Below, piece after piece: positions 9,142 through 24,822 of a stretch of DNA of 27,159 nt. The DNA lies in IMG/VR virus record IMGVR_UViG_3300009605_000113, positions 1 to 27,159 of that record. One strand, given 5' to 3'. Position 1 is the stretch's first letter. Every line of letters begins with the position of its first letter. The DNA is from a virus. Made by a program: the position numbers and the translations under genes. The notes below the pieces were generated by a model that was not told where the DNA came from, ran no database searches, and saw nothing but the letters and a program-made list of their open reading frames with translations.

Positions 9142-9354
9142 TTATAGAACCCTAGCTCCCCACATCTCTCTGAACTTCATGCGCACAAGAGGCTTCTTCC
9201 TAGCTCTGTACCAGTGCTGAGAGCCACACTCGCATGACTGCACCCAGAAGGGCGGGAAGCGACAGGCTTGAATGAACTCAGCGTCAGGCAGTTCACTGTG
9301 CTCTCCGCTCTTATGAATTAGCCAGGGTCCATAGCGATGATAGTGGGCGCTCAT
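9142..9354 (-). CDS. Small protein with CxC motif, function unknown
   Basis: Encodes 70 residues and is the last gene of the leftward block. Its ATG overlaps the upstream stop (ATGA). It starts MSAHYHRYGPWLIHKSGEHS and carries a cysteine pair in SCECGSQHWYRARKK followed by a basic stretch, which could be half of a metal site or a nucleic-acid contact. No family recognised. Confidence 0.72.
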   Translation of the reverse strand: MSAHYHRYGPWLIHKSGEHSELPDAEFIQACRFPPFWVQSCECGSQHWYRARKKPLVRMKFREMWGARVL

Positions 9355-9782
9355 GGATCTCTCTTCTCTTCACCACTACTCCAGTCTCTTCCAAACAGGT
9401 CAGGCTGAGAGCCTAAAGGATAGGGCTCACGCACCTTCCCTGACCCTCCACATAGAGGGCAGCACTGAAGAGCCTTGTGTGGCTTCTGAGGAGCCTCATC
9501 GCAGGCTACCCAGACTGTTGCCCTCCTGCCTGAGCGAGTCACCCTCTTAACCCCAGAGTCTTTAGCCTTCCCCAGAAGGACAAGCTCTCTACGTCTGGCG
9601 CTAACTGTCTGGTGTCTCAGCCCAAGGGAGGCTTCAAGCTCATCGTCTGTAGCTCCGAAGAGTCCGCGAAGCCTGAGCATGGATGCGACCTTGCTCCTGA
9701 GGGAGCTTGGCTTGATGCTCTTAGCTGCTTCCTCTGAAGTCTCTGAGCCAGCTACGAAGGGGGGCTTGTTGTTGTAAGCCAT
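9351..9782 (-). CDS. Winged-helix DNA-binding protein with C-terminal zinc-like motif
   Basis: Encodes 143 residues from the ATG at 9782, chosen because a G-rich ribosome site (AAGGGGG) precedes it and it overlaps the upstream stop as TGATG. An upstream GTG at 9839 is less likely. Residues about 30-93 read as a winged helix: TDDELEASLGLRHQTVSARR (recognition helix) then VKRVTRSGRRATVWV (wing). Such domains are common in small phage regulators. A CCPLCGGSG motif (107-115) may bind zinc. A regulatory role is likely; its target is unknown. Confidence 0.78.
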   Translation of the reverse strand: MAYNNKPPFVAGSETSEEAAKSIKPSSLRSKVASMLRLRGLFGATDDELEASLGLRHQTVSARRRELVLLGKAKDSGVKRVTRSGRRATVWVACDEAPQKPHKALQCCPLCGGSGKVREPYPLGSQPDLFGRDWSSGEEKRDP

Positions 9783-9793
9783 CACGCACCCCC
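9779..9793 (-). repeat. Junction cassette type I, copy 1 (one variant base)
   Basis: Minus-strand GGGGGTGCGTGATGG. It contains the ribosome site, the TGA stop of the upstream gene (which ends EGGA) and the ATG of the downstream gene. Confidence 0.85.
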
Positions 9794-10204
9794 TTCCTTT
9801 TTCATTAGCCCTTTCCAGTGCTCTATCTCGTTCGACCAAGCAAGCTCAAATCGGTCTGTTGTCGCGTAGCCATCCAGAGCCATAGCCCAAGCGTCGTTTA
9901 CGGGTGCCGCTATCCCATCGAGTAACTTGATTGAGGCTCGGACGTTTTCGCTTCGCCTCAGTTCAGACCTGCAATATTCAACCAGTTCCCAAAACATTCC
10001 AGGCTGGCAGTCGTCGCAGTTCTCAATTCCTAGTGCTGGACTTCCAAGGGTACAACACCGATCTCTCAGCGAGACCTCCCGCCACGCTTTATCAATCTGT
10101 TTGCACTTCTCTCTTAGGTCGAGAATGTGCCTAGCCGCCCACTCTGTGCGAACGTCTTTTGTTTCTTGCTGAACGCTTAAGGTTGTTGGTTTCTCGCTTC
10201 CCAT
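9782..10204 (-). CDS. Hypothetical protein ending in EGGA
   Basis: Encodes 140 residues from the ATG at 10204 (a GTG lies one codon upstream, but the ribosome site is better spaced for the ATG). It is helical, with several cysteines (DRCCTLG, ENCDDCQ) and a WSNEIEHWKGLMKKEGGA end. The last four residues come from the shared junction sequence. No family recognised. Confidence 0.75.
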   Translation of the reverse strand: MGSEKPTTLSVQQETKDVRTEWAARHILDLREKCKQIDKAWREVSLRDRCCTLGSPALGIENCDDCQPGMFWELVEYCRSELRRSENVRASIKLLDGIAAPVNDAWAMALDGYATTDRFELAWSNEIEHWKGLMKKEGGA

Positions 10205-10215
10205 CACGCACCTCC
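10201..10215 (-). repeat. Junction cassette type I, copy 2
   Basis: Minus-strand GGAGGTGCGTGATGG, joining the stop of the 10204-10392 gene to the start of the 9782-10204 gene. Confidence 0.88.
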
Positions 10216-10392
10216 CTCTTTAGCCAGGAAGTCTCTGGCTTTAGTCAGCACATGCTGGGCGAGGCACAGGGGCGTAGCCACCAGTGTTCTTTCGTAGACC
10301 ATCGCCTCTTCCTCTACCGACGAAGCGATAAATTTCAGAGCCTTGTCAATCTCTTCGACAACCTTGGCGGCCTCTGTGAATTCGTATTCCAT
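10204..10392 (-). CDS. Small helical hypothetical protein ending in EGGA
   Basis: Encodes 62 residues from the ATG at 10392, which sits inside the junction cassette. An in-frame GTG at 10425 falls within the upstream gene and lacks a ribosome site. The sequence (starting MEYEFTEAAKVVEEIDKAL, ending ARDFLAKEGGA) is a single long amphipathic helical protein, perhaps a dimer. Function unknown. Confidence 0.72.
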   Translation of the reverse strand: MEYEFTEAAKVVEEIDKALKFIASSVEEEAMVYERTLVATPLCLAQHVLTKARDFLAKEGGA

Positions 10393-10403
10393 CACGCACC
10401 TCC
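10389..10403 (-). repeat. Junction cassette type I, copy 3
   Basis: Minus-strand GGAGGTGCGTGATGG. With the four preceding bases (AGAA) it matches copy 4 over 19 bases. Confidence 0.88.
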
Positions 10404-10844
10404 TTCTGTCCAAGAGCCACACCACTTGCTGACCAACTCCTCTACTTCAGCAGCCTGTCGCAAGAGGTCTACGTCGCCAACGACAGCCAACGACTTGGGT
10501 CCGTCGCCCCACAGGTCTGAGTAGTTCACCACCCCCATCGGGTTTTCCTGAAGGGCAGCGGCGTCTTGCCGCATACGCTCAACCTGCTCGCGCAGCAGCC
10601 GAACAATCTCGGCAATCTCGGCATAGGTCCAGCCGAAAGTGCGGCGCACATCTCCGTTACCATCACGCCTCTCGGGCAGCAGCTTCCTTACCGCCCCCCG
10701 GTCTAGGTTGTCTTCGTTACCCCACCCGAGTAGTGCGCTGGCTGTCTGATCGATGAGAGACGTAAGGCCATCCCACTGGAAGTCTTCTCCTTCCCACGGG
10801 GATGTGTCGGGCTGAACTCGCTCTGCGGCAACGATGTAACCCAT
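10392..10844 (-). CDS. Hypothetical protein ending in EGGA
   Basis: Encodes 150 residues from the ATG at 10844 (a GTG is one codon upstream). The protein is acidic and helical, with a coiled-coil-like centre (YAEIAEIVRLLREQVERMRQ) and a WCGSWTEGGA end. It has no recognisable domain. Its terminal EGGA matches three neighbours whose remaining sequences are unrelated. Confidence 0.75.
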   Translation of the reverse strand: MGYIVAAERVQPDTSPWEGEDFQWDGLTSLIDQTASALLGWGNEDNLDRGAVRKLLPERRDGNGDVRRTFGWTYAEIAEIVRLLREQVERMRQDAAALQENPMGVVNYSDLWGDGPKSLAVVGDVDLLRQAAEVEELVSKWCGSWTEGGA

Positions 10845-10855
10845 CACGCACCTCC
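10841..10855 (-). repeat. Junction cassette type I, copy 4
   Basis: Minus-strand GGAGGTGCGTGATGG at the stop/start overlap of the 10844-11113 and 10392-10844 genes. Confidence 0.88.
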
Positions 10856-11113
10856 TTCTCGCTTAAGACACGCAGGGCACACCCACTGTTGGGAGCCCCA
10901 CTTGCGTGGGTTATGTCGGTAGACCCAGCCTGTCATTTCAGTGACCTCATCTGCGCTTGGCTGAGCGAGGGACAGGTCACTGTCTACATACTCATCGCAT
11001 ATAGGCTCCTTCTCAAACTCTTCTACTTGGCAGTAGATAGTTATTGGAAGTCTGCTGTCGTTGATGATCTCCATGATTGCGTCATGGGCATTGGTTGGTT
11101 TCTTACTGCTCAT
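10844..11113 (-). CDS. Small protein with C-terminal CPAC motif
   Basis: Encodes 89 residues. The ATG is preceded by AACTAACTAGGAGATAGAT, the same leader as the 11159-11470 gene. It starts MSSKKPTNAHDAIMEIIND; cysteines at 28, 38, 79 and 82 (WVCPACLKREGGA) could form a zinc site. First gene of the EGGA group. Function unknown. Confidence 0.74.
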   Translation of the reverse strand: MSSKKPTNAHDAIMEIINDSRLPITIYCQVEEFEKEPICDEYVDSDLSLAQPSADEVTEMTGWVYRHNPRKWGSQQWVCPACLKREGGA

Positions 11114-11158
11114 ATCTATCTCCTAGTTAGTTGTGGGTTTCCCTTGTGTCGCGCCCTC

Positions 11159-11470
11159 TTATTGGTCGTCGTCCGCTTCCTCTAGCTCTAACGACCTTTG
11201 GATGTGAAATTCAGCCTTTTTCAGTTGCTGCTCCATGCAGCGCTTTCTTCGTTCCATAAGTCTGAACGCCAATTCTCGGGCGTCCGTTTTCAAATCGACT
11301 TCAACCTTTCGATCTCCCTGGTTTTCCGGCGTACCTCTGGGGGAGTCTGGTCCTAACTGCATTTCGGGCTCCTCTGGGATCGTCCCCAGCAAACCCCTGG
11401 TTACAAGGACCCATTCGTGCGGCGTAAGGATTAGGTGAAACTGAATTCCGGTTATCTGTACGTCTGACAT
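11159..11470 (-). CDS. Hypothetical protein with coiled-coil C-terminus
   Basis: Encodes 103 residues. Leader AACTAACTAGGAGATAGAC precedes ATG, repeating the leader of the next gene downstream. It starts MSDVQITGIQFHLILTPHEW. The C-terminal third (RELAFRLMERRKRCMEQQLK and on) is charged and helical with an acidic EEADDDQ tail. No family recognised. Confidence 0.74.
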   Translation of the reverse strand: MSDVQITGIQFHLILTPHEWVLVTRGLLGTIPEEPEMQLGPDSPRGTPENQGDRKVEVDLKTDARELAFRLMERRKRCMEQQLKKAEFHIQRSLELEEADDDQ

Positions 11471-11545
11471 GTCTATCTCCTAGTTAGTTGTTAGGTGAGG
11501 CACCTGATGCTTCCGCCCGCTGTGCCTCCCTGTGCGGGTGACTGA

Positions 11546-11739: not shown

Positions 11740-12231
11740 CTAGAAGAGGTCGTCTACCTCAGCCTCGTCAAAGGCATCAGCCGGCGGCTCTGGAATGGCA
11801 TCAGAGTTAAGCACCTTGTCCACGTAGATGTTGACGTAGGTGCGCTCCCCGTTCTGCTTAGATTTCTGGGTAAGCTGGACAACACGGCCAATGATTCCAT
11901 TGCGGATAGGTCCGGTACGGCCATCGACAAACAAGTCCCCCCACTCTGGGACCTTCCCTGTCACGGTCTTCACTGTGCTCTTCACAAAGCTGAAGGTCTT
12001 TGGCCCCAGCCCTGTGAAGCGCTGCAGTTGAGAGCCACGGTGAGGACCATCAGCAACCTCAAACCACCACGAGACGTAGTAGTCACCCTTCTTGCTCACG
12101 AACACAGAGAAGTCAGTGACCTCTGCGCTGTACGAGCCGTCAGGCACGGTGTCCATCTTGCGGTCGTCAGACTTCCCGCTGCTTTGCTCCTGCTTAGCCG
12201 GGGCGCTATTAAACATGCTTCCAATATCCAT
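11740..12231 (-). CDS. Single-stranded DNA-binding-like protein of the recombination operon
   Basis: Encodes 163 residues. After a polar N-terminus, the body DGSYSAEVTDFSVFVSKKGD, SWWFEVADGPHRG and IIGRVVQLTQKSKQNGERTY reads as a single beta-barrel (OB-like) domain of the DUF669/phage SSB type. The C-terminus is acidic and ends DEAEVDDLF, like the protein-docking tails of SSBs. It starts two bases after the ATPase stop; the ribosome site (GGAG) lies inside the ATPase end. It would coat single strands made by the exonuclease. The functional call rests on fold-like pattern, tail and operon context. Confidence 0.8.
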   Translation of the reverse strand: MDIGSMFNSAPAKQEQSSGKSDDRKMDTVPDGSYSAEVTDFSVFVSKKGDYYVSWWFEVADGPHRGSQLQRFTGLGPKTFSFVKSTVKTVTGKVPEWGDLFVDGRTGPIRNGIIGRVVQLTQKSKQNGERTYVNIYVDKVLNSDAIPEPPADAFDEAEVDDLF

Positions 12232-12233
12232 CT

Positions 12234-12968
12234 CTAGTTCTCCTTCTTTCCAAGCGTCTTCTTGAACGCAGCTGAAAGTGATTCAAAGGTCATCTCAATT
12301 GTCTCAGGCAGGGTGGCCCCTTCACTTCCTCTGGCCTTGGCCTCTACCTTCTCACGCTTGTTCTCTACTGGTTGTGTGCGGAGGATCCGCTTGTTGTCTG
12401 GGGTGAACTCGCACCGGATGATGAAGTCCACGGCAGAGTGAAGCGTCTGCCTTGCCGTGTTGGGCAGCGCAGTCGTCACCTTGTACATCCCTGTCTCAAC
12501 CATCTTCGAGCCAAGCTTTTCTTTGATCATCTCGCTCTTCTCATGGCCGATAAGGACCGTACACATAGGCAGCATTCGCAGCTTAGTGATGACGTTAGTC
12601 CACTCCCTGTTCAGGGTGCGCCATCCCCTGCCCCACTCTCCGTCAGCCACATCGTTCCACCCGTTGGCTTCGCAGACATAGGTTTCGCAGAGGTTGTAGG
12701 CGATGTCAGCGGTATCGAGGATAACCGTCTGATACCCGTGGTTGCCCTCGGCAAGTTCAGCGATGATCGCTTTTAACTTTGTCCAGTTAGGCGCTGGAAC
12801 TGCAGCTGCCCACATCGCCTCAGTGCCACTCTCCGTAGCAATAAAGACAGGGTTGGGAAACTGGTTTGCCAGCGTCGTCTTTCCCACACCGGGCACCCCG
12901 TAGAAGTGCCATGTGTAGTCCGACATGCGGACACTCGGCGGTGAAGGTTCGTCAGGAAGTAGGCCCAT
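12234..12968 (-). CDS. Sak4-like RecA-fold ATPase (AAA_24 type)
   Basis: Encodes 244 residues with AAAGGAGAAC before ATG. Walker A is GVPGVGKTT (24-32); Walker B is VILDTAD (82-88); a later strand reads TVLIGHEKS. The N-terminal pattern TWHFYGVPGVGKTTLANQFP is typical of phage nucleotide-binding proteins (PF13479) grouped with Sak4 single-strand annealing recombinases. Between exonuclease and SSB, it would load or anneal strands in homologous recombination or aid replication. It overlaps the exonuclease gene by 17 bases. Confidence 0.88.
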   Translation of the reverse strand: MGLLPDEPSPPSVRMSDYTWHFYGVPGVGKTTLANQFPNPVFIATESGTEAMWAAAVPAPNWTKLKAIIAELAEGNHGYQTVILDTADIAYNLCETYVCEANGWNDVADGEWGRGWRTLNREWTNVITKLRMLPMCTVLIGHEKSEMIKEKLGSKMVETGMYKVTTALPNTARQTLHSAVDFIIRCEFTPDNKRILRTQPVENKREKVEAKARGSEGATLPETIEMTFESLSAAFKKTLGKKEN

Positions 12969-13854
12969 GATTGTTCTCCTTTAGTTCTGTGTGTCTCTGC
13001 TCAAGGACTCTGAATGAGTCTTTAGTTACAGCCCCTACGCACAGGTCGAAGTAGGGGCAGCGTCCTCTGTTAAGGCAAGACTGTGTGCTGCGTATGGGGG
13101 TAGCTCCGTTGCGTATCTGAAGGATGCGCTCGTGCGTTGCCCACGCTTGCTTAGTCCAGCCGTCTAGTTGTTCATCTGTTCTCTCAACAACGGTGTCAAA
13201 GAAGTAGTGATCGGGTCGCTGGATGTAGTCTTCTTTCAGCCGTTCGATGTACTCCTTAAGATCCTCCGTCTTCTTCTGTCGAATCGTGGGCTTCTTCACC
13301 ACCCGGTAGACCATCTTCCTGACAGGCACACCGTAGAGCTGACTCGCTGCCCACATGTACGTGCTGACTTGAAAGTCAATCTCAAGCCTCTGCATGTAGT
13401 CATTGCTAACCTGAGCTGCCGTCTTCCACTCGCCTATAAGAACCTCGACACCACCTCCGATGTCGGTCCACACACCGTCGATGACTCCCTGCAGAACATG
13501 CTTCCTGCTAGGTCGCCCGGTCTTCGGGTTGCGGAGAGGGACCCTAAAGCCAACCTCGTGCTTGTCAGGCCAGTCGGTCCACTTGGCTAGGGCACCCTCA
13601 ACCATCGCTACAACAGTTGCCTCTCGCACCATCGCAGCGGGCCCCTCAAAGATGCTCCACATGGGGTCAGGCCCACGCAGTTCATTCAGAGCAGCGTCCA
13701 CACTTTGGTGCTCGATCCCAGCATGGAAGGCAGAGCCCATCCGTAACGCTGGGTGTTCCTGAAACGGAACAAGCAACTCGTTGTAACGAAGGTTGTGTCG
13801 TTCCTCACACCGGCTAAAGGTGACCTGTTCAGACTGAGTGATAGCCTCCTTCAT
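12952..13854 (-). CDS. PD-(D/E)XK exonuclease with candidate Fe-S cysteines (RecB/Cas4-like)
   Basis: Encodes 300 residues. It starts MKEAITQSEQVTFSRCEERH; the R-C-E-E-R region corresponds to the N-terminal part of RecB-family nucleases. Nuclease motifs: GVIDGVW (D126), LIGEWKT (E142, K144) and downstream Q162 (IDFQVSTY). Cysteines at 16, 260, 266 and 272 (SCLNRGRCPYFDLCVGA) follow the one-plus-three pattern of Fe-S nucleases such as Cas4 and AddB. It would resect double-strand ends for the Sak4-like and SSB proteins. The ATG overlaps the HTH stop (ATGA). No cas genes are nearby, so a CRISPR role is not supported. Confidence 0.87.
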   Translation of the reverse strand: MKEAITQSEQVTFSRCEERHNLRYNELLVPFQEHPALRMGSAFHAGIEHQSVDAALNELRGPDPMWSIFEGPAAMVREATVVAMVEGALAKWTDWPDKHEVGFRVPLRNPKTGRPSRKHVLQGVIDGVWTDIGGGVEVLIGEWKTAAQVSNDYMQRLEIDFQVSTYMWAASQLYGVPVRKMVYRVVKKPTIRQKKTEDLKEYIERLKEDYIQRPDHYFFDTVVERTDEQLDGWTKQAWATHERILQIRNGATPIRSTQSCLNRGRCPYFDLCVGAVTKDSFRVLEQRHTELKENNHGPTS

Positions 13855-14291: not shown

Positions 14292-15263
14292 GAGTTCACG
14301 AAGGACGTTTGTGCTGCGTCGAACGAAGTCAGCACCGGAGCCCATCATCAGAGACTCGAAGCGCTGGTTGCCTCGTGTCTGACGGTGGTAGCCAGCGAAC
14401 TCAGTGACCGCATTGTATGCACCCCACGCCGTACCCTGGACACCAGGGATGCGCGCCCCTCTACCGTCGAAGTAGAGGGAGGTCAGGGTGCTGCGGTTCT
14501 TCTCAGCAATAGACATCGCTCGCTTGCTGAAGTCACCGTTCTCGTCAACCACAGGGTTGGGGAACAGGGTGTGACAGAAGTCCATCCACTTGCTCGCAGG
14601 CATCGTTGTCCCTGCAAGCCCTCGCATGAAGTCATCAGACTCTTCAAACGCCTTGCGCCCAAGGCCAAGGACGCGACGAGCCTCGCCAACCTTAAGAACC
14701 ATGTTCTTAGTGTGTCGGATGCTGATGCCCTCTCCCTTTGGGTTGCTCAGTGCAGCGCGAGCAGTGTTCGCGCAGACAACTCGGATGGTGACCCAGAGAC
14801 AACGCAGCGCCGTCTTCCCGTCGTGCCCGCTGTAGATGAAGAGGTAGTGGTCTACCCTATCTCCAGGGACAATCTCGGAAGAGCCAACTTTGCCAAGGAA
14901 CCAAACCTTCTGCCCCCCACGCAGGGAGCCGGCGGTGTGGATGCGAAGTGACCCATCCTCCACTAGCTCATCAGCGAACTGAGCGATGTCCAGGTTTTGG
15001 AAGAGGTGGTAGTCCTTCCCAGCCAGCCCAAGGATTGCTTTGTTGTCGCTGCGGACGATAGCCCGGTAGTCAGGCAGCTCAATCTCTGGCTCACTCCAGT
15101 CGAGGTGGGGTTGAGTGAAGACCTTGTGCTTCTCAACGGTCCAGTCAAGGCCCGCCATCTGGTAGGCAATCTCGGTGGTAACAGGCTCATCCCCCACGTA
15201 CTTTCCAAGTCCGTGCCAAGGGGTTGCTCCTACGTACATCATGGTATCGAGTTCGTGTGCCAT
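14286..15263 (-). CDS. DUF932 phage/plasmid-like protein
   Basis: Encodes 325 residues. The N-terminus (MAHELDTMMYVGATPWHGLG) and later blocks (DYHLFQNLD, TAGSLRGGQKVWFLG, VCANTARAAL, RGTAWGAYNAVTEF in varied form) match the DUF932 family (TIGR03299), common in phages, plasmids and integrative elements and of unknown biochemical role. Length is normal for the family. Ribosome site: AGGAGTAAGAC before ATG. Its stop lies inside palindrome 14270-14291. It may act in replication or recombination, since it lies directly upstream of that operon. Confidence 0.9.
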   Translation of the reverse strand: MAHELDTMMYVGATPWHGLGKYVGDEPVTTEIAYQMAGLDWTVEKHKVFTQPHLDWSEPEIELPDYRAIVRSDNKAILGLAGKDYHLFQNLDIAQFADELVEDGSLRIHTAGSLRGGQKVWFLGKVGSSEIVPGDRVDHYLFIYSGHDGKTALRCLWVTIRVVCANTARAALSNPKGEGISIRHTKNMVLKVGEARRVLGLGRKAFEESDDFMRGLAGTTMPASKWMDFCHTLFPNPVVDENGDFSKRAMSIAEKNRSTLTSLYFDGRGARIPGVQGTAWGAYNAVTEFAGYHRQTRGNQRFESLMMGSGADFVRRSTNVLRELV

Positions 15264-15272
15264 GTCTTACTC

Positions 15273-15701
15273 CTAGTTTTGTGGTTGGTTGGTGGTGAAG
15301 GGAGCTGTGCTGACAACATTGTCGGCAACAGCAGGTTCCTCAGTAGACACTGAGGTAGGGACAGGTTCTGTCCTGGGTAGGATCCCAGCGTTGGTCAGCG
15401 CTGATACGAACTGATTGATTGCGATGAGTGCTAGGTGTTCCTTCTTAGCGGTCCGAACGATGTTCATCAGCTTCTCTACGTCCTCTTCGTTGTCCGGGTC
15501 TATGTCTGCAACGAACCTGAGGCCGCTTCGGATGTCGCTATAGGCACAGAGCTGTGCCCTCACATCTTCCGGGTCGCCAAACTGCTCCTCTATACCTAGC
15601 CAGCCGGCGAGGTTTTCAGGTATTTGATCCAACATATCTTTGGCAGAGTTGAGCTGGTCTATAGCTCCCTCAAGTTCGTAGTTAATGTCGTTAATATCCA
15701 T
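15273..15701 (-). CDS. Hypothetical acidic protein with P/T-rich tail
   Basis: Encodes 142 residues. Leader CCAACCAACAAGGAGTAAGAC precedes ATG. It starts MDINDINYELEGAIDQLNSA; the body is acidic and helical. The last 35 residues are rich in P, T, V and S (TEPVPTSVSTEEP) and end TTNQPQN, encoded by the leader of the next gene. A domain plus flexible tail is likely. Family not recognised. Confidence 0.74.
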   Translation of the reverse strand: MDINDINYELEGAIDQLNSAKDMLDQIPENLAGWLGIEEQFGDPEDVRAQLCAYSDIRSGLRFVADIDPDNEEDVEKLMNIVRTAKKEHLALIAINQFVSALTNAGILPRTEPVPTSVSTEEPAVADNVVSTAPFTTNQPQN

Positions 15702-15704
15702 GTC

Positions 15705-16286
15705 TTACTCCTTGTTGGTTGGTTGGTAGAGGTGGAACGTTTGGGTCAGGGGGTTCTCTGACCCGTCTTCGTAGAGGTCCACGAGGACACTCCCGGCTGC
15801 GGGGTGGGCACAGGCCACACGGGCCTCGTCGATGTCCCCATCCGCTCCGTCGCCAGAGAGATAGGAACCGTCAACCGAATAGACCGTAGCCTGGACAGCG
15901 CGGTTCCCTTCGGACCAGCTGGAGGTCCACTCAGAGGCTCCATTGCGGGCAAGAAAGTCCTCCAGTTGTTCGCGTAAAGTCATGCCTTGCTCCTTGTTGT
16001 TTGCTGTCTCTGACAGAAGAACATTCCTGTCGAGGACATCTTTGAATGTGTTTGCGGTTAGCTCCCCACGCAGGGCGCTACCTTGAGAATGAGCGGCCCA
16101 GACGTAGGCCAGTTCCTCAGCAAGCCGGAAGAACTCATCCAGCTGCTTAAGACCGTGCCCCTCAAAGGCAGGCTCTACCTCTCTCCACTCCGCTGTAGCC
16201 CTGTGAGCCTTAAGCGCAAACTTAGTAAGCTCTGCAAGGTGCGCTTGAAGCTGCCATGTGATTGTCTCTAGTTCTCTCAATTCCAT
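15705..16286 (-). CDS. Hypothetical protein, probable fusion of two genes across a start cassette
   Basis: Encodes 193 residues. The first 100 are helical (starting MELRELETITWQLQAHLAEL). Then ETANNKEQGM is encoded by a start cassette: AACAAGGAGCAAGGCATG at 15998-15981. The usual cassette is AACAAGGAGTAAGACATG with an in-frame TAA, so a T-to-C change seems to have removed a stop and fused two genes. The second part (from M102, nt 15983) is a compact acidic beta-rich protein with its own ribosome site, so a separate 92-residue product is likely. It ends YQPTNKE, from the next cassette. Promoter 16352-16380 lies upstream. Confidence 0.7.
   Translation of the reverse strand: MELRELETITWQLQAHLAELTKFALKAHRATAEWREVEPAFEGHGLKQLDEFFRLAEELAYVWAAHSQGSALRGELTANTFKDVLDRNVLLSETANNKEQGMTLREQLEDFLARNGASEWTSSWSEGNRAVQATVYSVDGSYLSGDGADGDIDEARVACAHPAAGSVLVDLYEDGSENPLTQTFHLYQPTNKE
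15981..15998 (-). promoter_or_regulatory. Internal ribosome site and start within a fused frame
   Basis: Minus-strand AACAAGGAGCAAGGCATG, equal to the cassette before 15701 except for two bases. AAGGAG is 6 bases from the ATG at 15983, predicting internal initiation. Confidence 0.6.
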
Positions 16287-17074: not shown

Positions 17075-17245
17075 CTAGGTATCTTCTTGCTCGTCTAGTA
17101 GCTCAGCTGGTCCTCCGCATTCAGGGCACCTAGTAGCTCCCTTCTCTGGCTCCCACCTGTAGTCACACTCAAAGCAGATAGCGCTGCCTGTCTCTTCCTG
17201 AGGTGGGAGTGCAGCTGGGCACAGTGCTGATTCAATCGGTGTCAT
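17075..17245 (-). CDS. Zinc-ribbon protein, 56 residues
   Basis: ATG at 17245 follows AACACACAACACAAGGAGACTGAAC, matching the leaders of other genes in this block. Cysteines 24 and 27 (CFECDYRW) and 40 and 43 (RCPECGGPAELL) form a classic rubredoxin/zinc-ribbon knuckle pair 16 residues apart. It ends TAG at 17075. A small DNA-, RNA- or protein-binding adaptor is likely. Confidence 0.78.
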   Translation of the reverse strand: MTPIESALCPAALPPQEETGSAICFECDYRWEPEKGATRCPECGGPAELLDEQEDT

Positions 17246-17274
17246 GTTCAGTCTCCTTGTGTTGTGTGTTGGTT

Positions 17275-17292
17275 TTAACTTCTAAGGGTTAA
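17275..17292. promoter_or_regulatory. Class A palindrome 3 (TTAAC-N8-GTTAA)
   Basis: Spacer ttctaagg. It begins 3 bases past the stop of the 17296 gene and precedes the ACACA leader of the 17245 gene. Confidence 0.6.
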
Positions 17293-17295
17293 GAG

Positions 17296-17634
17296 TTACT
17301 CGCTCTCCTTTTCGCTACGCAAAGCCTCCTTCTTTAAGAGCTTGTCGAACTCGCTCTCGCTCATGCTTGAGGCGTTTGTCCATAGCCCGATGTGAGCCTT
17401 GGCTGAGTCAAGGATCTCGCTCTGGTTTGCGGGCCAGCCGCGTGCCACGTTGAGCTGTGACATGCGAGAGGCGAACTCTCTGTAGTTTTCCTTTGTGATC
17501 TTGTTCATGCCGACTGACATAGCCCCCCAGATAAGACGGTCTGTAGACACCCTCATCTGCTGGTCATTGCCCTCGCCATAGAAGCAAACGGTTTCGTAGT
17601 CAGTTACCTCTGATAGATTCCAATTAAGACTCAT
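17296..17634 (-). CDS. Hypothetical protein, 112 residues
   Basis: Leader AACAAGGAGTAACAC precedes ATG, which overlaps the upstream stop (ATGA). It starts MSLNWNLSEVTDYETVCFYG and ends KKEALRSEKESE. A mixed, mostly helical and charged protein with no recognisable domain. Its stop lies 3 bases from palindrome 17275-17292. Confidence 0.74.
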   Translation of the reverse strand: MSLNWNLSEVTDYETVCFYGEGNDQQMRVSTDRLIWGAMSVGMNKITKENYREFASRMSQLNVARGWPANQSEILDSAKAHIGLWTNASSMSESEFDKLLKKEALRSEKESE

Positions 17635-17966
17635 GTGTTACTCCTTGTTTGGTAGTAGGTTTCGCACTTCTTACAGCTACGCTTGCCGGGAACTGCGTCG
17701 GCATATCCGCAGTCGCAGCAGGTATCCGCTAGGTCTGGGCAAGACTCGCCGCGTGCCTCTAGCCAAGCCCTTGCTTGGTCAGCGCGGGAGGCCCACGCAG
17801 CAAGCTCTCTCTCGCCCCCGCCACAGCACCAGTCACAACCGCTAAGGTTTACTCGCATCCAGGCGCACTCCGCTAGCGCGGAGGCATGCTCTCTGCGAGC
17901 TTCCTCGACGCTGCGGGGGGCGACCACGGGGCCAGGGTCTTCCTCTGGATATTCTAGGTAGCTCAT
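17631..17966 (-). CDS. Cysteine-rich hypothetical protein
   Basis: Encodes 111 residues. The start lies in a type II junction cassette. Cysteine clusters: GCDWCCGGG (44-48), TCCDCGYA (83-86) and SCKKCETYY (98-101). The last two probably form a C-terminal zinc ribbon. The middle is helical and alanine-rich (ERELAAWASRADQARAWLEA). The terminal YQTRSNT is the start cassette of the next gene read in another frame. Function unknown. Confidence 0.76.
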   Translation of the reverse strand: MSYLEYPEEDPGPVVAPRSVEEARREHASALAECAWMRVNLSGCDWCCGGGERELAAWASRADQARAWLEARGESCPDLADTCCDCGYADAVPGKRSCKKCETYYQTRSNT

Positions 17967-17977
17967 GCTTCCTCCTT
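17961..17977 (-). repeat. Junction cassette type II, copy 1
   Basis: Minus-strand AAGGAGGAAGCATGAGC: ribosome site, upstream stop (protein ending KEEA) and downstream ATG (protein starting MS). Confidence 0.88.
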
Positions 17978-18202
17978 GATGCTCACTAGCTCCACTTTCC
18001 AGTCAAGCCCAGCCCACCTCAGCCAGCCCTCAGGGGTGTCGTCGGTCGGCCTGTTGTTGGTAGCAAATAGGGCGCAGGCGATCTCGCTAGCCGGAACTCC
18101 AGCGGAGGAGAGCGCATAAGCGGCCTGTCGAGCGTCCTCTAGGCTGAACGTCGCGTAGTCAGGGCCGACAATCCCGTGCCACGGTGTGTGTTCCTTGCTC
18201 AT
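17963..18202 (-). CDS. Hypothetical protein ending in KEEA
   Basis: Encodes 79 residues. It starts MSKEHTPWHGIVGPDYATFS, then a helical segment (LEDARQAAYALSSAGV) and GWLRWAGLDWKVELVSIKEEA. Junction cassettes lie at both ends, so the whole gene is a cassette-bounded unit. No domain recognised. Confidence 0.74.
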   Translation of the reverse strand: MSKEHTPWHGIVGPDYATFSLEDARQAAYALSSAGVPASEIACALFATNNRPTDDTPEGWLRWAGLDWKVELVSIKEEA

Positions 18203-18213
18203 GCTTCCTCCTT
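18197..18213 (-). repeat. Junction cassette type II, copy 2
   Basis: Minus-strand AAGGAGGAAGCATGAGC between the 18199-18405 and 17963-18202 genes. Confidence 0.88.
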
Positions 18214-18581: not shown

Positions 18582-18781
18582 CTCTTACTCCGTGTTGCAC
18601 TCTCAAGGATTGAGAGGGCGTTGCTGATTGCCTTTAGCGCATTCATGGTGGTTGGCCGGCGAAGTTGAGTCGCCAGCGCGAGTTCTGAGTGGGCTTCGAG
18701 TAGCTCAGAGCGAGCTGACCGTATAGCCACGGTTAGGTAGGTTTCTCTTTGGGTTTCTTTGCCTGTGAGTATGTTGCTCAT
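18578..18781 (-). CDS. Small helical hypothetical protein
   Basis: Encodes 67 residues, starting in a type II cassette. It starts MSNILTGKETQRETYLTVAI, continues as amphipathic helices (RSARSELLEAHSELALATQL) and ends SATRSKR, where RSKR is the next start region read in a shifted frame. No domain recognised. Confidence 0.72.
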   Translation of the reverse strand: MSNILTGKETQRETYLTVAIRSARSELLEAHSELALATQLRRPTTMNALKAISNALSILESATRSKR

Positions 18782-18792
18782 GCTTCCTCCTT
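18776..18792 (-). repeat. Junction cassette type II, copy 3
   Basis: Minus-strand AAGGAGGAAGCATGAGC. With copy 1 the identity extends upstream through GCATC, giving 22 matching bases. Confidence 0.88.
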
Positions 18793-18966
18793 GATGCGCT
18801 CGCCTACCATCTTGTCAATCTCCTGCACATGCCTATCAGCCCAGCCAATCTGGTCCTTTAGCAGTGAGTAGAGGGCACGTATCTCAGCGTGCATAGATGC
18901 AGCAAGGTTGCTGTCTAGTGCGTGGAAAGGGACGGGGGGTTTCTCGGTGTGCCTGTAGTTACTCAT
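18778..18966 (-). CDS. Small helical hypothetical protein ending in KEEA
   Basis: Encodes 62 residues from the ATG at 18966, which overlaps the stop of the two-TM protein (ATGA) and follows AACAGGAGAAGAGGC; an upstream start at 19038 lies inside that gene. It starts MSNYRHTEKPPVPFHALDSN, and the rest is helical (LYSLLKDQIGWADRHVQEID). It ends GERIKEEA. Confidence 0.72.
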   Translation of the reverse strand: MSNYRHTEKPPVPFHALDSNLAASMHAEIRALYSLLKDQIGWADRHVQEIDKMVGERIKEEA

Positions 18967-19514: not shown

Positions 19515-19961
19515 CTACTGAGAAGACAGGGCGTGCTCGCCCCAGAAAGCCTTGGCCTCAGCCTTTTCCTCGTCGTTCATGCTCTTGTCCCAGGGCTCAC
19601 GCGGCGCAACCACCTGAGATCCATACGCCGTGTAGATGAGAGGCTCATCCCCAGGGGACTCGCCGGGGCCAGCGATGAGGACCATCTCTCGGCACGGGCG
19701 AGGCTCCCTGCTGACAAGGCGAGAGGGGCCAGCTCGGTTGGCTCTGGTGACGTACTCAACCTCATCCTCAGCGATGGGGTCGTCCCCTGCTGAAGGGCCA
19801 TGCAGGTCTGACAGCAGAGGGGGGCAGTCCTCTGGCATCGTGGCGTGAAGCCGGGTGAAGCTGCCATCCCAGCCACTGAGCAGGGTGTCAATGAACTGAA
19901 GGTGCCTCTGCTTCAGTCCGTGGTCGTCGTGAAAGAAGGCGATTCCGTTTGGTGTTTCCAT
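19515..19961 (-). CDS. Conserved-type phage hypothetical protein with YTAYG / APREP motif
   Basis: Encodes 148 residues. It starts METPNGIAFFHDDHGLKQRH. The C-terminal part, LIYTAYGSQVVAPREPWD then AKAFWGEHALSSQ, matches from memory a motif in many uncharacterised phage and bacterial proteins. No catalytic residues can be named. Ribosome site AAGGAGTAAGAC precedes ATG. It is last in its transcription unit before promoter 19464. Confidence 0.78.
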   Translation of the reverse strand: METPNGIAFFHDDHGLKQRHLQFIDTLLSGWDGSFTRLHATMPEDCPPLLSDLHGPSAGDDPIAEDEVEYVTRANRAGPSRLVSREPRPCREMVLIAGPGESPGDEPLIYTAYGSQVVAPREPWDKSMNDEEKAEAKAFWGEHALSSQ

Positions 19962-19964
19962 GTC

Positions 19965-20579
19965 TTACTCCTTGGTTGGTTCGTTGTACTGAATCTGAGC
20001 ATCAATGAGGGCGAGGGTGGCTTGCTTAAACGCAACCTCATGCTCTTCGGCGTAGCAATATGTGGTGTAGGAACGCTCTACGAGCTTTCTGAGCATAGGG
20101 AGGCTCCCATCCCCGAAGCAGGCTATGGACCCCACAAATTCAAGCCACTTCTTGTATGCGCTGGCGACTTCTACCTCGCTGCAAGTTGGAATCCTGTATC
20201 CAACCCACCGAGAATCGACTGGTCTTCCGGCTTCATGGTTGCTAACAGCTAAGAACTCGTCAGGGGCGACAGCTTTCCACCTTTTGATAGCCTCCCTGTT
20301 GGCTTCAAAGGAGGAGTTTTCCCCATAAGGCCCCTCGCTGGGGTACATGCCAGAGGCGAGCCTCCTGACCGTGTTATTAACACTGCCAGAGCAGTATTCG
20401 TGGTCCTCGGGTCCGTCAACATTAGCGAATGAGACAGAATGGGGACCGTCCCTGTATAGGGCTTTGTTGTGAATACCCAGGTCCCACTTCCTCCCTCTGG
20501 AATCTGTGAACGGGCCAAGGTGAAGGCAGTATGTCCAGATGTGGTGATCTTTTCCGTGATGAAATTCATTGTCGAGCAT
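19965..20579 (-). CDS. Hypothetical protein, 204 residues
   Basis: Leader CAGGAGATAGAC precedes ATG. It starts MLDNEFHHGKDHHIWTYCLH and is rich in H, W and Y in its first half (GRKWDLGIHNKALYRDGPHS). A helical C-terminus follows (KKWLEFVGSIACFGDG, FKQATLALIDAQIQY). It ends NEPTKE, from the next gene's start cassette. The histidine pattern could bind metal, but no family was recognised. Confidence 0.75.
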   Translation of the reverse strand: MLDNEFHHGKDHHIWTYCLHLGPFTDSRGRKWDLGIHNKALYRDGPHSVSFANVDGPEDHEYCSGSVNNTVRRLASGMYPSEGPYGENSSFEANREAIKRWKAVAPDEFLAVSNHEAGRPVDSRWVGYRIPTCSEVEVASAYKKWLEFVGSIACFGDGSLPMLRKLVERSYTTYCYAEEHEVAFKQATLALIDAQIQYNEPTKE

Positions 20580-22746: not shown

Positions 22747-22764
22747 TTAACTCCTAGAAGTTAA
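22747..22764. promoter_or_regulatory. Class A palindrome 6 (TTAAC-N8-GTTAA)
   Basis: Spacer tcctagaa contains the TAG stop (22754-22756) of the 22754 gene. Confidence 0.65.
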
Positions 22765-23044: not shown

Positions 23045-23064
23045 TTTAACTTGAGTGAGTTAAA
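23045..23064. promoter_or_regulatory. Class A palindrome 7 (TTTAAC-N8-GTTAAA)
   Basis: Spacer ttgagtga. It lies 2 bases past the stop at 23067 and 18 bases upstream of the -35 of promoter 22998-23026. Confidence 0.68.
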
Positions 23065-23408: not shown

Positions 23409-23433
23409 CGTGTTTCTCCTGTGTGTTAGTGAG

Positions 23434-23457
23434 TTATTTATTCGGCTGAATAAATAA
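23434..23457. promoter_or_regulatory. Class B palindrome 2, 10-bp arms
   Basis: TTATTTATTC-GGCT-GAATAAATAA, a perfect palindrome 11 bases past the stop at 23468 and upstream of the 23408 gene. Confidence 0.72.
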
Positions 23458-23467
23458 GGGTAAAGGG

Positions 23468-24770: not shown

Positions 24771-24785
24771 TCTGTTTCTCCTGAG

Positions 24786-24809
24786 TTATTTATTTATCGG
24801 AATAAATAA
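24786..24809. promoter_or_regulatory. Class B palindrome 3
   Basis: TTATTTATT-TATCGG-AATAAATAA; in the class B register this is TTTATTT-ATCG-GAATAAA with one arm change. It lies directly upstream of the 24770 ribosome site. Confidence 0.66.
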
Positions 24810-24822
24810 GGGTGAAGGGTGG

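Follow-up and report, generated by a model that had tools for sequence, protein, structure and literature searches.

Genes and repeated joints in the window

The window analysed in this study is a virus record of 27,159 bases, which is possibly part of a larger genome. On its minus strand, six small genes (A to F) sit downstream of genes for a PD-(D/E)XK exonuclease (12952..13854; PF12705, phrog_1218), a Sak4-like ssDNA annealing protein that is a candidate recombinase (12234..12968; phrog_124) and an ssDNA-binding protein (11740..12231; phrog_7778, DUF669). Gene A (11159..11470) encodes 103 aa. Gene B (10844..11113, 89 aa) was not assigned a function and gave a weak match to phrog_9007, and gene C (10392..10844, 150 aa) was likewise not assigned a function. 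These are followed by gene D (10204..10392, 62 aa), gene E (9782..10204, 140 aa) and gene F (9351..9782), a member of the phrog_1123 family that forms the conserved anchor gene past the repeated joints. Genes were called by a simple script, which recovered the genes at these joints. No defence gene was matched among them by PADLOC, and an Rfam search of the window matched no RNA element. In INPHARED, which covers cultured phages, there was no DNA match to the window or to two other loci, L130 and L097, and no match for residues 1-807 of the window's 1314-aa protein; the cultured-phage matches of the Sak4-like protein were distant ones only.

The four successive joints B/C, C/D, D/E and E/F share the sequence GGAGGTGCGTGATGG, referred to here as the seam. 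It is present in three exact copies (seam 1, 10841..10855; seam 2, 10389..10403; seam 3, 10201..10215) and in one copy with a single mismatch, GGGGGTGCGTGATGG (seam 4, 9779..9793), all on the minus strand. Each copy holds a ribosome site, a TGA stop and an ATG start, and TGATG makes a 1-base stop/start overlap, as the first-pass annotation had claimed; its figure of 12-19 bp for the shared sequence is fair, the consensus being GGAGGTG[A/C/T]GTGATG (14-15 bp). There are two adjacent in-frame starts in each window seam (GTGATG), of which GTG gives a 4-base and ATG a 1-base overlap. The chance expectation of the exact 15-mer in the window is about 5e-5 by arithmetic. An additional match inside a gene (10660-10674) has three mismatches and is chance-like; shuffled controls gave 0.96 matches at three or fewer mismatches, and five matches were reached in 0 of 100 shuffles.

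Read in the frame of the upstream gene, the seam is GAA/GAG-GGA/GGG-GGT-GCG-TGA. Therefore, proteins B, C, D and E end REGGA, TEGGA, KEGGA and KEGGA (in full LKREGGA, SWTEGGA, LAKEGGA and MKKEGGA before the stop). After trimming of these tails the four proteins had no significant mutual similarity, which bears out the earlier observation that otherwise unrelated proteins share the EGGA end in a frame fixed by the seam. Gene duplication as the origin of the tail was ruled out by the same dissimilarity.

Another type of seam, AAGGAGGAAGCATGAG, is found on the minus strand at three gene joints around 17.9-18.8 kb (17962..17977, 18198..18213 and 18777..18792), where the upstream proteins all end KEEA. 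Another start cassette, AACTAACTAGGAGATAGATATG, lies before gene B (11111..11136, minus strand), with a near-copy before gene A (11468-11493). The start-cassette family ACTAGGAGATAGACATG / ACAAGGAGTAAGACATG is repeated before unrelated genes with intergenic gaps (11103-11139, 11460-11496, 15253-15289, 15691-15727, 15973-16009, 17624-17660 and 19951-19987). Inverted repeats, TTATTTATTC..GAATAAATAA and TTAACT..AGTTAA, recur intergenically ahead of start cassettes (23434-23457 and 24786-24809; also 22747-22764 and 23046-23063). Several stretches of this kind (17240-17313, 23429-23462 and 24775-24820) share 95-98% identity with L006 or L008, in genomes that otherwise resemble the window at about 73-77%.

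Gene order and breakpoints in related genomes

A search with the Sak4-like protein gave seven relatives at 85-87% protein identity and a second record of the same phage. Alignments between the window and its relatives end at seams. For example, the gene order in L012 is A-x-y-z-D-F: gene C is missing, as in other relatives, and gene E is gone, with both of its breakpoints at seams. The counterpart of seam 3, GGAGGTGAGTGATGG at position 3061 of L012, links D straight to F, and the counterpart of seam 2, at 2873, is preceded by an unrelated gene, so that the L012 homologue of D (73% aa identity) is flanked by seams with other neighbours. Similarly, gene y, which is common to L010, L011, L012 and L065, ends EEGGA and runs into a seam, after which come F in L010, q in L011, z in L012 and another gene in L065. 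L198 and L199, which are about 97-99% identical, differ in one place by an indel of 425 bp that holds one gene and in another by an indel of 1.6 kb; each of the two runs from seam to seam, and a third change begins at a seam. The gain, loss and swapping of genes at seams that the first-pass annotation predicted were thus seen in these three comparisons and also between L225 and L263. The recombination step that it proposed is itself inferred, and one case fits less simply. One gene (p66, ending REGGA) precedes F in L007-L009 and none does in L006; To either side of this difference L006 and L007 are about 99-100% identical. The changed stretch is bounded by a TTAAC half-repeat and by the start codon of F, at which the exchange broke; L006 has a different ribosome site there, and the seam was not retained in one allele.

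The neighbouring gene was conserved across seam joints in 7 of 110 comparisons (6%), against 45-47% at non-seam joints no more than four genes away from a seam and an overall 58-72%. Averaged per gene family, neighbour conservation was 0.05 at seams, 0.26 at nearby non-seam joints and 0.46 overall (p=0.009 and 3e-5). In 12 pairs that share the upstream gene only, the sequences are near-identical through the seam to the ATG and then fall to about 25%; in 10 pairs that share the downstream gene only, identity begins exactly at GGAGG. Homology from either side therefore ends at the edges of the 14-bp seam, and the overlap of both is the seam only. All sequences are metagenomic, and the exchange is read from sequence comparison rather than seen in culture. 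Some doubt also comes from the genes at the seams being of the accessory kind, in a region that changes fast.

A control made within genes found the seam side to be the less conserved one in 12 comparisons against 2, or in 5 genes against 2. Since this control was too weak to deal with region effects, breakpoint and indel tests on loci selected by primase were added. Sixty loci were fetched through their primase, independently of the seam, and 55 were analysed; in these the exact seam occurs on the forward strand only. Among 35 pairs of similar genomes from this sample, which are not independent of one another, structural breakpoints were found at 22 of 53 seam joints, compared with 41 of the 442 other starts, giving an odds ratio of 6.9 (p=1e-8), and many of the 'other' starts are themselves seam variants such as GGAGGTGAATGATG or GGAGGTGAGTAATG. 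For the indel test, the primase loci were pooled with L198-L203 and the window's relatives, and sequences at least 90% alike were compared. This gave 19 clean indels of 0.1-1.6 kb, 13 of which have 8-28 bp of microhomology that is nearly always part or all of a ribosome-site/(stop)/start cassette. Microhomology of at least 8 bp is offered by 12.5% of gene-start pairs at similar distance (binomial p=2e-8, with some of the events related). The cassette AGGAGCAGTCATG in L207, L225 and L263 (for example L225, 2396-2542) is the site of equally exact gene indels, with microhomology of 13-28 bp, and the principle therefore extends beyond the GGAGGTG seam.

Translation, gene exchange and alternative explanations

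The seam occurs well beyond the window's relatives. A scan of IMG/VR with an exact 17-mer gave 38 stretches, many of them at real gene joints of unrelated phages, and a degenerate scan gave more than 119. The seam also forms chains. On one 55-kb contig there are 14 copies, a second contig has 8 and three further ones have 7 each, with the copies confined to one strand and no match to a reversed control pattern. A second group of phages carries A at the variable letter (63 exact joints, proteins ending GGE; none with C among the common contexts listed), and one member that was checked, L191, encodes RecT- and RecE-like proteins. The letter is mostly C in the window's group (10 C, 3 A). A bacterial genome scan returned single joints and one chain-bearing contig. 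L277, a contig of a Chloroflexi MAG (JAAENG010000219.1), has four seams in an 8-kb piece and is probably a phage contig binned with that MAG.

The core of the seam, AAGGAGGTG, is a near-perfect complement of the 16S rRNA 3' end. Each seam type is a strong ribosome site; the predicted anti-SD pairing of the first seam type is -15.4 kcal/mol with C and -17.6 kcal/mol with A, compared with -11.4 kcal/mol for the second seam type, about -7 kcal/mol for the other start cassettes tested and -7 to -11 kcal/mol at other sites. A stop/start overlap combined with a ribosome site that lies within the upstream coding sequence is the architecture of translational coupling, and translation across the seam is accordingly predicted to be coupled. 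Since the seam is a near-perfect ribosome site, selection for translation also maintains it.

Based on these results, we consider it likely that the seam is a translational-coupling joint that doubles as a short-homology point of gene exchange. GGAGGTG is a near-perfect Shine-Dalgarno sequence within the last codons of the upstream gene. In the proposed mechanism, the TGA that ends this gene would couple its translation to the overlapping ATG of the next. Two copies of the seam may then recombine, either between phages or, as a deletion, within one genome. Because all joints share the same letters and frame, recombination would leave an intact stop, ribosome site and start, and since every recombinant joint is intact, small genes could be gained, lost or reshuffled singly, from seam to seam. 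The joint would be kept because each product of exchange is translatable. We infer that the homology of the seam drives the exchange, probably through an annealing recombinase of the phage, which would be Sak4 in the window and RecT in the other family, or through replication slippage. The presence of Sak4, exonuclease and SSB genes in the window and of RecT and RecE in L191 is in favour of this proposal. However, efficient pairing by Red-beta has been reported to need 23-27 bp (PMC3945230), and the bare homology of the seam, 14 bp, is below this range, which counts against it. The broader claim, that multi-copy seams serve as homology sockets for annealing recombinases in a widespread and self-maintaining exchange of one-gene cassettes with no dedicated recombinase, is put forward tentatively, at slightly less than an even chance.

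The main alternative is convergent selection only, in which each joint independently optimises its ribosome site and overlap, while exchange is random (illegitimate) and the products with intact genes survive. It would account for breakpoints falling at gene joints, and AAGGAGGTG(A) is the anti-SD complement. Furthermore, single copies of the exact 17-mer lie at gene joints in unrelated phages, and 31 of 76 matches in the bacterial scan lie at ORF/ORF joints; selection for translation alone can therefore produce the seam. However, microhomology at the clean indels exceeds the gene-start average (13/19 against 12.5%), and breakpoints prefer seams about 7-fold over other starts. In addition, the window's family mostly keeps the suboptimal C although pairing with the ribosome is stronger for A, and such sharing resembles copying inside one lineage more than independent optimisation. 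The remaining TGATG joints of other phages also seldom carry the seam, a qualitative comparison whose background is biased by contig selection. Taken together, these facts make convergence alone unlikely.

The two next alternatives are both very improbable. One is that the contigs are assembly artefacts, chimeric at short repeats. The relatives are indeed all metagenomic contigs, but the usual assembly k-mers are longer than the 14-15 bp of the seam. Moreover, identical seam joints recur across samples (L083/L123/L164 and L007/L008/L009), and the window and L005 are 99.99% identical over 15.9 kb. The other is that a dedicated, integron-like site-specific recombinase recognises the seam, which would agree with the exchange of one-gene cassettes at a constant short site and with the serine-recombinase-like genes near some joints in L201/L202 and L277. 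However, no dyad symmetry or attC-like structure was found in the seam by inspection, and the variants GGAGGTGAATGATG, GGAGGTGAGTAATG and AGGAGCAGTCATG behave alike. The serine-recombinase-like genes (YGYVRVSTDKQ) of L201, L202 and L277 (1480-2289 in L277) lie beside or near joints both with and without the seam.

The C-terminal tails were compared among homologous proteins. Over the larger set, the tail is present in 41 of 41 partners whose 3' joint is a seam and in 10 of 51 whose joint is not. Individual cases agree with this. The window gene at 18778-18966, upstream of the third AAGGAGGAAGCATGAG copy, ends KEEA; its L033 homologue ends REEGGA and is followed by the first seam type and by another gene. 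In the window and in L012 the end of gene A is DDDQ, but before a seam in L048 it is KEGGE, and one more gene has the end EEGGA in L048 and RRWRP in L033. In these individual cases the homologies were judged by eye from translations, and that of gene A alone was also matched by blastn. Because the tail comes with the seam joint and is mostly absent otherwise, it is best read as the translation of the DNA joint, and on these comparisons the EGGA/GGE tail is a by-product of the seam. Selection for the tail as a functional tag had been named in the first-pass annotation as one refuting alternative. Such a peptide would serve in localisation, degradation or interaction, with selection acting on the protein; several unrelated proteins do share the tail, but it is a translated ribosome site, it is lacking in 41 of the 51 homologues without a following seam, and it becomes KEEA or GGE or disappears when the joint changes, and the idea can be set aside with hardly any doubt.

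Comparison with known systems and significance

Short boundary sequences at the borders of phage modules are a long-standing proposal (discussed in PMC3029335), and the seam is best seen as a form of such boundary-sequence mosaicism, with Start-Associated Sequences, T4 PeSL cassettes and the lambda ninR chain as systems of a similar kind. At the seam as at these boundary sequences, recombination would take place at a short shared border sequence and C-terminal similarity is left as a trace; the modules exchanged at seams carry short homology at both borders. In Island3, gp67 and gp68 share 18 C-terminal residues through about 50 bp at one border (PMC3029335), whereas the seam is a coding joint of 14-15 bp, present in up to 14 copies per genome, at which single genes are exchanged.

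Cluster K mycobacteriophages and Cluster EF Microbacterium phages have Start-Associated Sequences (SAS), whose conservation goes further than anti-SD pairing requires and which have been proposed as translation elements (PMC3203893, PMC7302621). Like the seam, the SAS is an unusually conserved ribosome-site repeat found in many copies, at many unrelated genes in the non-structural half of the genome. However, it is a 13-bp repeat of the GGGATAGGAGCCC or GGGAAAGGACCCC type and not GGAGGTG[ACT]GTGATG, and it lies mostly before genes with gaps of more than 50 bp, whereas seam joints overlap by one base. The seam also fits anti-SD pairing plus the stop and start, and it marks gene exchange. The inverted-repeat stretches of the window resemble the extended SAS (ESAS) arrangement.

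The mobile regulatory cassettes of T4-type phages (PeSLs), as cited in PMC4503421, are intergenic, consist of a promoter and a stem-loop and shuffle genes. They are likewise repeated between small genes and mark regions of gene shuffling, but the seam is a 15-bp coding overlap with no promoter, stem-loop or intergenic DNA. The lambda ninR chain (J02459) also has stop/start overlaps that place the ribosome site in the upstream gene, which is why several of its proteins end AA; its ribosome sites vary from joint to joint, and the recurring part is only the GC(T/C)GCATGA-like end. Overlapping TGATG/ATGA pairs couple translation (PMC6728339); they have the same overlap architecture, and the subject of that work is expression and not gene exchange. 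A literature search, mostly without subscription papers, found no multi-copy coding stop/ribosome-site/start seam described as an exchange joint.

It has long been asked whether phage mosaicism arises from shared boundary sequences or from random joining that selection then filters. Here a short and well-defined coding boundary exists in many copies, and natural swaps with mapped breakpoints number in the dozens, which makes this question directly testable. The odd, repeated C-terminal tails (GGA/GGE/EEA) are also explained without invoking a function of the protein, and this bears on how small phage genes are annotated. If the proposal is true, exchange would always rebuild a translatable joint, and accessory genes would be combinatorially shuffled without a dedicated recombinase.
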